This document shows positions 1,884-4,930 of a DNA stretch of 33,192 nucleotides, one piece after another. Each line of letters opens with the position of its first letter. Position 1 is the first letter of the stretch. The notes beneath the pieces are model-generated. The model saw only the letters and a list, made by a program, of their open reading frames with translations. It was not told the DNA's origin and searched no databases. The position numbers were made by a program, and so were the translations under genes. The DNA comes from Sphingobium sp. (GTDB taxonomy: Bacteria > Pseudomonadota > Alphaproteobacteria > Sphingomonadales > Sphingomonadaceae): the NCBI GenBank assembly GCA_013911745.1, contig JACESO010000025.1, forward strand, positions 1-33,192. The letters run 5' to 3'.

Positions 1884-2999
1884 ATGAAGGTAGCGCTGGT
1901 GTTCGGGACACGGCCCGAAGCGATCAAGATGTTTCCCGTGATCCATGCGCTGCGCGGCCGTGCCGGGATCGACGTGCGCGTGATCGTGACGGCGCAGCAT
2001 CGCGGGCTGCTGGATCAGGTGTTGGAGATCGCCGGCGTCGTGCCGGACATCGACCTGGACGTCATGGTGCCCAACCAGACGCTCGACGGGCTGACGGCGA
2101 AGCTGATCGTCGAACTGGGCAAGGCGTTCGACGCGGAGAAGCCCGATCGCATCCTCGTCCATGGTGATACGCTTACCACCATGGTGGCGAGCCTTGCGGC
2201 CTATTACCGCAAGATTCCGGTCGGTCATGTCGAGGCGGGCCTGCGCAGCGGCGACATCCACCATCCCTGGCCCGAGGAAGTGAACCGCCGCGTGGTCGCC
2301 TGCATCGCGGACATGAACTTCGCCCCGACCCAGGCGGCGGAGGACGCGCTGCTCAGCGAGAACCGCGAAGCTGCGAGCATCCACATCACCGGCAATACCG
2401 TGATCGACGCGCTGCTTGCGACGCGCGACCGGGTGCTGGCCGACCCAAGGCTGGCGAGCGGGCTCGACGATCTCGCCGCGCGCTTCGCCGGCAAGCGCAT
2501 CGTTGCCGTCACCAGCCACCGGCGCGAGAATTTCGGCGGCGGGATGGAGGCGATCGCCCGATCGATCGCGGACATCGCCGCGCGGCCGGACGTGGCCGTG
2601 ATCTTTCCGGTCCACCCCAATCCCAATGTCCGCCCGGTGATGGACGCGGTGCTGGGCAACCTGCCCAACGTCGCCATGATCGAGCCGCTCGACTATCCCC
2701 ATTTCGTGCGATTGCTGGATATGTGCCATCTGGTCCTGACCGATAGCGGCGGCGTGCAGGAGGAGGCGCCCTCGCTCGGCAAGCCGGTGCTGGTGATGCG
2801 CGAGACGACCGAGCGGCCGGAGGGCGTGGCGGCAGGGACGGCGAAGCTGGTTGGCACGGACCGCGCGTTGATCGTGCAGGAGGTGTTGGCATTGCTGGAC
2901 GACGAGGACGCTTACTTGGCGATGGCGCGCGCGCATAATCCCTTTGGGGATGGCAAGGCGGCGGAGCGGATCGCGGATGTCGTGGCGGCAGCATTATAA
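1884..2999 (+). CDS. wecB: UDP-N-acetylglucosamine 2-epimerase (non-hydrolysing)
   Basis: WecB interconverts UDP-GlcNAc and UDP-ManNAc in the cytoplasm, the first step to ManNAc-containing surface glycans. The 371-aa length fits the family. The sequence opens with the Rossmann motif VALVFGTRPEAIKMFPVI. It has HGDT (D95) and GHVEAGLRSGD (E117), SHRRENFG (H212), and the nucleotide-binding signature SGGVQEEAPSLGKPVL followed by ETTERPE. The acidic residues fall at the same positions as the catalytic D95 and E117 of the E. coli enzyme. GAAGGAAG precedes the ATG closely. It lies upstream of wecC, which uses its product, with a small gene and a palindromic element between them, and then the export genes. 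Confidence 0.95.
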   Translation: MKVALVFGTRPEAIKMFPVIHALRGRAGIDVRVIVTAQHRGLLDQVLEIAGVVPDIDLDVMVPNQTLDGLTAKLIVELGKAFDAEKPDRILVHGDTLTTMVASLAAYYRKIPVGHVEAGLRSGDIHHPWPEEVNRRVVACIADMNFAPTQAAEDALLSENREAASIHITGNTVIDALLATRDRVLADPRLASGLDDLAARFAGKRIVAVTSHRRENFGGGMEAIARSIADIAARPDVAVIFPVHPNPNVRPVMDAVLGNLPNVAMIEPLDYPHFVRLLDMCHLVLTDSGGVQEEAPSLGKPVLVMRETTERPEGVAAGTAKLVGTDRALIVQEVLALLDDEDAYLAMARAHNPFGDGKAAERIADVVAAAL

Positions 3000-3118: not shown

Positions 3119-3166
3119 ATGTCGCCTATTTCTTATGTCCTCCCGGTCGTGGCGCTTTCCGCATGA
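3119..3166 (+). CDS. Possible 15-aa leader peptide
   Basis: A mini-ORF encodes MSPISYVLPVVALSA and ends in a TGA that shares ATGA with the start of the next gene at 3163. GGAG lies 6 bases before its ATG, whereas the downstream gene has no good ribosome site of its own. This layout suggests translational coupling, with the leader delivering ribosomes to the 78-aa gene. At 15 codons it could also be chance. Confidence 0.3.
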   Translation: MSPISYVLPVVALSA

Positions 3167-3399
3167 GCCGGGCGATCAACGTCAACGCCAGCGTCGCCGA
3201 TGTGGAAGCGCTGTGCGCGCGCCATGGGATCGCCATTTCGGTCATCGAGCCGCTGACATCGGGCGGGACACGCGTGGTCTTGCTGAACCCCGACGGGGCG
3301 GAACGGGTCCGCACGCTGATGAAAACGAAGATCATCACCGCCGCGGTCGTGCGGTCGCCCATGCACATGGCGCGACAGCCGGCTCCGCGATACCGCTAG
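3163..3399 (+). CDS. Conserved-looking hypothetical protein (78 aa)
   Basis: The protein begins MSRAINVNASVADVEALCAR, with a compact alpha/beta-looking core and a basic C-terminus. It resembles a kind of short protein I recall from sphingomonad genomes, of the form INV-x-A-x(4)-V-x2-LC followed by IEPLTSGGTRVVL and ITAAVVRSP, but I know no function. No signal peptide or membrane helix is seen. The start at 3163 is preferred because the N-terminal extension from 3097 looks non-coding. The stop codon TAG at 3397-3399 is formed by the first bases of the palindromic element that follows, so the natural C-terminus may have been altered by insertion of that element. Confidence 0.6.
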   Translation: MSRAINVNASVADVEALCARHGIAISVIEPLTSGGTRVVLLNPDGAERVRTLMKTKIITAAVVRSPMHMARQPAPRYR

Positions 3400-3541
3400 G
3401 GCGGATAGACATTCAGCCCTGGCGGCCTGCAAATGGCGGCTTTCCGAGCTTCCGGTGCTCACGTACTTTTAGTACGCTGCGCTCCGGGTCTCGAAAACCC
3501 ACCATTTTCGTCACGCCATCATCTGAATATCTATCCGCCCT
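3398..3541. repeat. 144-bp imperfect palindromic element (REP/MITE-like)
   Basis: The outer arms are GGGCGGATAGACATTCAG (3399-3416) and CTGAATATCTATCCGCCC (3523-3540). They are inverted copies with one mismatch, and one further A-T pair extends them to 3398 and 3541. The centre is CGTACT-TTT-AGTACG (3462-3476), lying at the midpoint of the arms (about 3469). Between centre and ends there are more imperfect inverted blocks, such as AAATGG at 3431-3436 against CCATTT at 3502-3507, and CCGG at 3452-3455 against CCGG at 3484-3487. The element has no protein-coding look of its own. Its symmetry suggests a mobile palindromic element or a large RNA hairpin. I have the impression of similar sequence in other sphingomonad intergenic regions, but cannot test that here. 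Confidence 0.75.
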
Positions 3542-3634
3542 GTATTCGTCTCACCTTCGAGGCAGTCGTTACCGAAATCTTCAGCATTTCCGGGCAGGAG
3601 GTTGGTCGTATTTCAGCGGCCATAAGGACCATCC

Positions 3635-4930
3635 ATGCCCGTCGACACCAAGCAGAAGGTTTCCGTCATCGGCCTTGGCTATATCGGCCTGCCGACTGCT
3701 GCGCTGATCGCGCGGGGCGGGGCGCAGGTGGTCGGCGTGGATGTCAGCGCGCATGTGGTCGAGACGGTCAATTCGGGCCGCGTCCATATCGAAGAGGTCG
3801 ATCTCGACGGCCTGGTGCAGGGCGTGGTCGCGCGCGGCAATCTGCGCGCCAGCCTTGAGGTCGAGGAAAGCGACGTCTTCATCATCGCGGTGCCGACCCC
3901 GGTGGCGGAGGATCGTGCGCCCGACATCTCCTATGTCCTGAAAGCGGCGCGCACCGTCGCCCCGGCGCTCAAGGCCGGCGACACCGTGATCCTCGAATCC
4001 ACCTCGCCGGTCGGCACGACGGAAGCGATGCGCGACCTGTTCGCAGAGCTGCGTCCTGACCTCAGGATGCCGGGAACCGGCGTCGCGGGCGACATCGCCA
4101 TCGCCTATTGCCCGGAGCGCGTGCTGCCGGGTCGCATCCTGGTCGAGCTGATCGACAATGACCGCTGCATCGGCGGCATCACGCCCCGTTGCGCGCGCAA
4201 GGCGCTGGGCTTTTATCGCCAGTTCGTGCGCGGCGCCTGCATCACCACCACCGCCCGCGCGGCGGAGATGGTGAAGCTGGTCGAAAACAGCTTTCGCGAC
4301 GTCAACATCGCCTTCGCCAACGAATTGTCGGTGATTGCGGAGAATATGGACATCGACGTGTGGGAGGTGATCCGGCTCGCCAACCGGCATCCGCGCGTCA
4401 ACATCCTCAATCCCGGGCCAGGCGTCGGCGGCCATTGCATCGCGGTCGACCCCTGGTTCATCGTCCATGGCGATCCGCAAAACGCCCGCATCATCCGCAC
4501 CGCGCGCGAAGTGAACGACGGCAAGACCGACCATGTGGTCGCGAAAGCCTCCGACCTGATCGATGATTTTGCGCAAGAAGACGTCGCCTGCCTTGGCCTC
4601 GCCTTCAAGGCCAATATCGACGATTTCCGCGAAAGCCCCGCGGTCAAGGTGGCCGCGCGCCTCGCCCGCCGCTACGGTCGCCGGATCAAGCTGGTGGAGC
4701 CCTATGCCCACGACCTGCCGATGGACTTTGCCGGCACTGGCGCTGAGTTGATCGATCTCGATACGGCACTGGAACAATGCGGCGTGTTCGTCATTCTTGT
4801 CGATCATGACATGTTCAAATCGGTCCCCGTCGACGAGCGCGCCGACAAGGCGGTCTATGACACGCGCGGCATCTGGCCGGACCAGCCGCGCCGCATTGCG
4901 CAGTTCGCGCCGGATCGCCTCGCCGTCTGA
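3635..4930 (+). CDS. wecC: UDP-N-acetyl-D-mannosamine dehydrogenase
   Basis: WecC oxidises UDP-ManNAc to UDP-ManNAcA with two NAD+ per turn. The 431-aa protein has the N-terminal NAD-binding motif VSVIGLGYIGLPTAALIA and VPTPV, then ESTSPVGTTEA and YCPERVLPGRI. The active-site block NPGPGVGGHCIAVDPWFI carries the catalytic cysteine (C268). The C-terminal UDP-binding domain includes GLAFKANIDDFRESPAVKVA and ends near VYDTRGIW. The HCIAVDPWF variant fits the ManNAc dehydrogenase branch better than the UDP-glucose branch. AAGGA stands 6 bases before the ATG. With wecB upstream it completes UDP-ManNAcA synthesis, and export genes follow after 117 bp. Confidence 0.94.
   Translation: MPVDTKQKVSVIGLGYIGLPTAALIARGGAQVVGVDVSAHVVETVNSGRVHIEEVDLDGLVQGVVARGNLRASLEVEESDVFIIAVPTPVAEDRAPDISYVLKAARTVAPALKAGDTVILESTSPVGTTEAMRDLFAELRPDLRMPGTGVAGDIAIAYCPERVLPGRILVELIDNDRCIGGITPRCARKALGFYRQFVRGACITTTARAAEMVKLVENSFRDVNIAFANELSVIAENMDIDVWEVIRLANRHPRVNILNPGPGVGGHCIAVDPWFIVHGDPQNARIIRTAREVNDGKTDHVVAKASDLIDDFAQEDVACLGLAFKANIDDFRESPAVKVAARLARRYGRRIKLVEPYAHDLPMDFAGTGAELIDLDTALEQCGVFVILVDHDMFKSVPVDERADKAVYDTRGIWPDQPRRIAQFAPDRLAV

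Follow-up and report, generated by a model that had tools for sequence, protein, structure and literature searches.

The DNA between wecB and wecC in a Sphingobium sp. contig (JACESO010000025.1, assembly GCA_013911745.1) raises the question of how a long palindrome came to begin within the stop codon of a gene, and whether the gene owes that stop codon to it. The window analyzed here is the whole stretch of 33,192 nucleotides (positions 1 to 33,192 of the forward strand). The original prediction, made from the letters of the window alone, described a 144-bp near-palindrome that supplies the stop codon of a 78-aa gene, with either a REP-associated (RayT/IS200-like) transposase or a MITE parent behind it. 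By comparing sequences of relatives, we found that the element inserted at a TA target that was duplicated, that its ends match those of IS5-family ISs, and that copies of its family lie on stop codons in excess. We consider it very probable that the palindrome is a non-autonomous IS5-family MITE, moved in trans and tolerated at stops, and thus an ordinary kind of element with an unusual stop-codon habit.

Results

A palindrome within the stop codon of a conserved gene

The palindrome lies between wecB (UDP-GlcNAc 2-epimerase, 1884..2999, + strand, NCBIfam TIGR00236) and wecC (UDP-ManNAc dehydrogenase, 3635..4930, +, NCBIfam NF008286), as originally proposed, and a conserved gene of unknown function, defined by its ORF and homologues, ends in the insertion site (78 aa; 3163..3399, +). 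The predicted symmetrical arms are real: they comprise 19 nt (3398-3416 and 3523-3541) with one mismatch, and their 18 matches are unique in that no other 19-nt pair at the same spacing in the 33-kb window reaches even 15. The perfect centre CGTACT-TTT-AGTACG can be read directly at 3462..3476 (+) as an apical stem, with compensatory changes in relatives. The extent given for the palindrome, 144 bp from 3398 to 3541, has to be amended, since base 3398, as the A in the left copy of the target, lies outside the element proper, which is 142 bp long (3399..3540, +, oriented such that the left end meets the stop codon). Moreover, an ungapped mirror of all 144 bases pairs at only 36/72 positions, a value equaled at four other places in the window, and the inner part of the palindrome pairs only via bulges. 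Folded with bulges, the palindrome is nonetheless real, with a free energy of -74.5 kcal/mol compared to -39.8 +/- 3.8 in 200 shuffles (z -9.2; 0/200 as good).

Within the 142 bp, we assigned an 18-bp left terminal inverted repeat (GGGCGGATAGACATTCAG, 3399..3416, +) and, by comparison of the arms, a right terminal inverted repeat (3523..3540, -), which match at 17/18 positions, as well as a conserved central hairpin (3427..3510, +), which matches a covariance model (R1) that includes the window copy among its 45 sequences. We saw by eye no T-run 3' of the stem and rejected a classical terminator on that ground. Likewise, the window has no Rfam match at gathering score, and the sole sub-threshold match in 3300-3640 was to a microRNA model (19.8 of 80 bits); we thus rejected a known RNA family.

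To find out where the stop codon came from, we compared 30 fetched loci of the 78-aa gene, including the window and G087, the closest relative. The protein has matches in 81/94 genomes of the genus and none in Pfam or NCBIfam. Apart from the window and G087, 19 of the 30 loci encode a protein ending in PRYR with neither the element nor an IS behind it; their stops are TAG in 10, TAA in 7 and TGA in 2, and six loci (L077, L078, L079, L081, L082 and L086) have the identical CGC TAG. One further homologue ends in PHSR (L091), and eight more distant homologues have other ends. More distant members of this gene family also have differing downstream sequence. Since relatives without the element end in the same PRYR and stop, the stop codon of the 78-aa gene is older than the element. 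The prediction that the element inserted into the 3' end of this gene therefore stands, with the left target copy TA (3397..3398, from a CTAG target, as seen in the sequence and in relatives without the element) within the TAG stop (3397..3399, +), while the claim that it supplies the stop does not: on this comparison, the TAG is regenerated from the TA of the target and the first G of the element. The right target copy (3541..3542), which follows from the sequence and from the TA on both sides of related copies, has decayed to TG. Downstream of the element, a conserved non-coding motif (CGTTACCGAAATCTTCAGCATTTCCGGGCA, 3567..3596, +) upstream of wecC is intact; it occurs downstream of the gene in 17/21 PRYR loci with a strict pattern and is possibly a promoter or regulatory site. 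The further idea of the original prediction, that the hairpin may separate the expression of wecB and wecC, stays a conjecture.

The same gene end has received other insertions. In G087, whose protein is 87% identical, a complete 850-bp IS5-family IS occupies the very same CTAG, with junctions CGCTA / GAGCGGATCGACATTTA...TAAATGTCGATCCGCCC / TAG, ends GAGCGGATCGACATTTA and GGGCGGATCGACATTTAGG, and TA on each side. This IS carries two ORFs that match the IS5-family model NF033580 (transpos_IS5_3) and Pfam DUF4096 and DDE_Tnp_1. In G027 and G028, the MITE lies within the TAG of a 78-aa homologue with 55-57% identity. Thus, stops of this gene family have been hit at least three times. We also note that locus L085 (genome G069) has another palindromic insertion right behind the TAA stop of the orthologue, 154 bp between outer arm ends, with arms ending in ...GTTTGAAAATGCGC and no clear target duplication.

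Ends and target shared with IS5-family ISs

We extracted 186 copies of the family (173 with distinct flanks), of which 156 have at least 14/18 arm matches. Among these 156 good-arm copies, 117 are exactly 142 bp long and 96 have TA on both sides, and the target reads YTA...TAR in 90/96 (CTA/TAG 52, TTA/TAG 21, CTA/TAA 17). TA is missing on one or both sides in the other 60/156, the window copy included, a result that we count against the MITE explanation. Copies differ in their outer arm bases, with both sides changing together; for example, the pair 5/138 is CG in 55, GC in 36 and TA in 15 of 116 copies. Since IS copies with ends ~850 bp apart show similar paired variation, the covariation of the arms may reflect recognition by a transposase rather than RNA structure.

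ISs with similar ends are present in both the genus and the family, flanked by TA at YTAR. The IS at L286 has perfect 18-bp ends (GGGCGGATCGACATTCAG) that differ from the left arm of the window element at one base (17/18 identical), and the transposase domains that we found in these ISs are PF13340 and PF01609. The window element is short and non-coding and has terminal inverted repeats and a target duplication, of which the right TA has decayed. It shares its ends with an autonomous IS, and its target (YTAR) and duplication (TA) are those of the IS. These sequence comparisons give good support to mobility by IS5-type ends, and an IS5-family IS of ~850 bp, as in G087, is likely the type of the parent. 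The MITE parent that the original prediction had offered as one option is thus supported. Against the MITE explanation, we found no matching transposase in the organism's own draft genome, which is 81% complete; the best IS5 relative there is 40% identical and differs in its ends, and there is one more match, a weak one. With only such distant relatives found in its own genome, the element has probably lost its mobility there.

A family repeated across the genus

The search of sphingomonad genomes that the original prediction had proposed showed that the family is widespread. At E 0.001, at least 83/94 genomes of the genus, counting the window's own, match the family, with the best ~9 candidates scored per genome, and among the candidates scored, 11/94 have none. 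In a deeper search of six sister genomes, with up to the best 40 candidates scored, we obtained 43, 42, 40, 40, 19 and 15 matches, although palindromes can match on both strands, such that the number of places may be somewhat lower. In the own draft genome (147 contigs, 2.89 Mb), one copy was found, which likewise matches on both strands. Thus, dispersed copies of the kind expected of a MITE are present in the six sister genomes, and a single one was found in the own draft. In G049, many contigs start or end within copies of the element, and copy numbers from drafts may therefore be too low. The original prediction had itself named two results that would speak against it, a single-copy sequence and an unchanged C-terminus where the element is absent; both were found in the literal sense, with one copy in this assembly, but they remove only the idea that the element supplies the stop. 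The reading as a repeat element survives, since multiple copies of the family occur in sister genomes.

An exact 31-base core pattern is present in 43 stretches of named genomes, from genera that include Sphingobium, Novosphingobium, Sphingopyxis, Phyllobacterium, Agrobacterium and Mesorhizobium. The element also matches 31 plasmid records (Sphingobium, Shinella and others) and no phage records.

Copies lie on stop codons in excess

With a simple test based on open frames and codon position, we found that in 57/96 TA-flanked copies a gene stops precisely at the junction, compared to 2/384 for frame-shift controls and 21/206 for the remaining YTAR sites of these loci (5/45 for CTAG). For a second test, we used our own codon-usage gene caller, trained on 400 kb from three sister genomes, and reduced the 90 YTA...TAR copies, to which the window copy with its decayed right TA does not belong, to 85 independent sites. 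Of these sites, 42 coincide with a single stop and 9 with two convergent stops that overlap; 33 are intergenic and 1 is intragenic. Of 374 YTAR sites taken as controls from the 400 kb, 46 are on a stop, 0 on a double stop, 224 intergenic and 104 inside genes. Thus, 51/85 sites are on stops, compared to 46/270 non-genic control YTAR sites (odds ratio 7.5, P 9e-14), the copies being drawn from a larger number of genomes than the control, which covers three. The excess is also seen between convergent genes, where 35/41 copies (from the 90, unreduced for kinship) are on stops, compared to 20/93 control sites.

Among 54 control convergent gene pairs, we observed no overlap of 4 nt. We inspected 15 of 20 fetched loci corresponding to one double-stop locus (L168), and both stops were readable in 13; in 4 of these 13, the two genes overlap at a shared stop with the element absent. 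Thus, a shared double stop can predate the insertion. Copies on stops are no more diverged than the others (P 0.54), a result that does not favor slow retention at stops. In contrast to the MITE copies, ISs with the same kind of ends are on stops in 5/19 resolved cases (23 inspected) and, in a broader overlapping set, in 6/29, which is hardly above control; we count this against the MITE explanation.

Orientation and a conserved core hairpin

The two ends of the element do not meet stops equally. Of the 90 copies, 34 meet a stop with the left end only, 10 with the right end only and 11 with both (P 0.0004 for 34 vs 10, with related copies kept). The mismatches in the stem are also asymmetric: read in the sense direction, A-C occurs in 273 cells and G-U in 74 (37 vs 10 pairs, not counting one whose consensus is T-G), and in 116/116 of the 142-nt copies the more stable fold is that of the opposite strand, related copies being not independent. 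This wobble asymmetry, which points to the strand opposite the sense, is a lead and not proof; we rejected an RNA constraint on the sense strand.

Elsewhere in Alphaproteobacteria, matches are mostly to the central hairpin and the outer arms differ; the core thus seems to be older than its ends. In an alignment of 45 cores, 94.0% of cells at 23 pairs are paired, compared to 79.8% in shuffles, with changes on both sides at 18/23 pairs and a covariation of 0.386 compared to 0.139 (0/500 shuffles as high). The internal-loop sequences TGCTCA and CTGCGC are nearly invariant, although 19/45 cores came from loci with the exact core pattern, so that their loop identity is partly due to selection of the sequences. 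With the covariance model, we found matches in 43/385 genomes of the class at E <=1e-4 (E-values rough, from a short calibration), compared to 18 in a plain DNA search of 385 class genomes. At 1e-10, the model matched 22 genomes in 17 families; nine of these gave the model no sequence, and the other 13 match partly by construction. In a search of the phylum, 60/398 genomes matched, 39 of them outside the class, where a single genome fell below E 1e-10; weak matches outside the class, such as those in G927 (ten near 1e-7), are not counted as relatives. At L327, in a small genome (G481), two weak matches to the core lie at a distance of 122 nt, beside a repeat of the GTCATTGCGAGGAGC type.

Outside the genus, the target duplications that we resolved are TA or TNA (TAA in Agrobacterium and Xaviernesmea, TGA in Phyllobacterium). 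Ten of 13 resolved copies are on stops by the open-frame test with a lenient codon-position criterion; the left end is always at the stop, and in 3 the right end is as well. These 13, one of them in the same family, come from 61 rows, from which we dropped 36 with no duplication, 7 with half of one and 5 without arms, some of the dropped rows being chance matches of the pattern. In the first pass, end-calling was loose, with the core missed in 8/60 loci and 4 more armless; a narrower pass resolved 7 copies, largely among the same 13, with 6 on stops. In Thalassospira lucentensis, both hairpin-arm sequences are tabulated at two loci as putative microRNAs predicted from small-RNA reads, according to the available part of that report (PMC6413936 Table 5). 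We do not adopt the name microRNA here.

Discussion

How the element would reach and spare a stop codon

We propose that an IS5_3 transposase from ISs of ~850 bp, with ends such as GGGCGGATCGACATTCAG, would act in trans on the 18-bp ends and mobilize the MITE, which would insert at YTAR, here CTAG, with TA duplicated. The initial G of the element, added to TA, would restore TAG; with a stop codon as the target, the protein of the upstream gene would stay complete, and where one CTAG is common to two convergent genes, both stops would be restored. Since insertion restores the stop, copies may be tolerated there, with a long hairpin directly behind the gene.

Among other readings, two appear very improbable to us. 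In one, the excess at stops is an artefact of ORF prediction, in that intragenic insertions create a stop at the junction, as TA plus G in frame always does. A YTA...TAR target, however, is already TAR in that frame, so the stop existed before insertion; the other two frames yield 2/384; and at the two sites checked, the empty site keeps the C-terminus (window) or the double stop (L168). In the other, a RAYT (IS200/IS605-like) transposase would have moved the element, which would then be a palindrome of the REP type, a possibility that the original prediction had raised. The element is indeed palindromic, intergenic and repeated. GTAG-tagged REPs are not known to duplicate TA. They are 20-40 bp long and associated with RAYT, and their termini often supply TAG to flanking ORFs, as far as the accessible text goes (PMC3733652). 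An element of 142 bp with TA duplication and 18-bp ends matching IS5-family ISs does not fit this description, and judged by its ends and target duplication such an origin has no support.

Two other accounts bear on why stop codons are hit and what the hairpin might do. Either the transposase or the DNA state at gene ends might actively steer MITEs to stops, beyond the preference for YTAR; we regard this as a serious contender, although we lean slightly against it. It would explain the excess over non-genic YTAR sites (51/84 vs 46/270), the bias between convergent genes, the 9/85 shared double stops in the face of control pairs that do not overlap in this way, the lack of an age difference between stop copies and others, and the independent hits on the stop of the 78-aa gene and its homologue. 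On the other hand, ISs with the same type of ends show a weak excess at most, and strong selection straight after insertion would give the same picture. Thus, target choice and rapid selection are both possible sources of the excess. It is also conceivable, if rather doubtful, that the element serves as an RNA module, either domesticated or self-protecting, whose transcribed hairpin would control the 3' ends of mRNAs through stability, processing or termination, and that this accounts for its persistence and the conservation of the core. The spread of the core across Alphaproteobacteria with differing outer arms, the compensatory changes in its pairs, the bias of the left end to stops within and outside the genus, and the Thalassospira lucentensis listing are in line with this. 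However, the strand on which G-U is kept is the antisense one, no T-run follows the stem, no Rfam model matches at gathering score, the covariation of a palindrome could arise at the DNA level, and 11/94 genomes of the genus do without a match.

Relation to known elements

Among the closest described systems are IS5-family ISs with a YTAR target, such as IS711 of Brucella. We take IS711 to be a member of the IS5 family, with group name IS427. It is 842 bp long and duplicates TA at YTAR, as given in the part of the literature at hand (PMC3163539), and the ISs found here, ~840-850 bp with TA duplication at YTAR, are like it. Unlike IS5-family ISs, the window element lacks a transposase, and most of its length is palindromic. 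It resembles ERIC, RUP and other bacterial MITEs, which are non-autonomous and mostly intergenic and have inverted repeats, although they differ in sequence and in the transposase to which they are linked. From the portions of the reports available, RUP is a MITE with TA at its target (PMC2229807), ERIC at 3' ends alters transcript level, and QMITE2 is mostly in 3' untranslated regions (PMC10969869). The same portions of the literature make no mention of exact landing on stop codons for ERIC, RUP or other MITEs.

Other palindromic or structured intergenic repeats of Alphaproteobacteria, namely Bru-RS1/2 (Brucella), RIME and the A/B/C palindromes (Rhizobium) and CIR (Caulobacter), can be likened to the element by description only, as partial accounts give it; in these accounts, Bru-RS1 is a putative target of IS711. 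CIR has a GANTC methylation site, and GANTC is absent from both the window element and the consensus, which sets the element apart from CIR. We found no description of the present MITE family in the parts of the literature searched, which lie outside the original descriptions of RIME, Bru-RS and CIR. Already in print are MITEs with TA targets, 3'-end hairpins that change mRNA level, and stops provided by palindromic repeats (GTAG REPs).

Implications

We suggest, tentatively and with some doubt, that the element belongs to a class-wide modular mobile element, in which an asymmetric TGCTCA-stem-CTGCGC hairpin would carry exchangeable IS5-type ends and land on stops in a biased orientation (TAG/TAA with a TA duplication, TAA/TGA with a TNA duplication), acting as a portable, stop-preserving 3' end and as a splitter of genes that share CTAG. 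The spread of the core with changing ends might also link scattered palindromes of Alphaproteobacteria. If the landing on stop codons is active targeting, it would show how a transposon can spare its host by picking a site for which its own first base provides the repair. If selection is responsible instead, the copies would provide a natural set of genes with and without a 142-nt hairpin behind the stop, overlapping convergent genes included, in which the effect of ERIC-like hairpins on mRNA would be directly testable.
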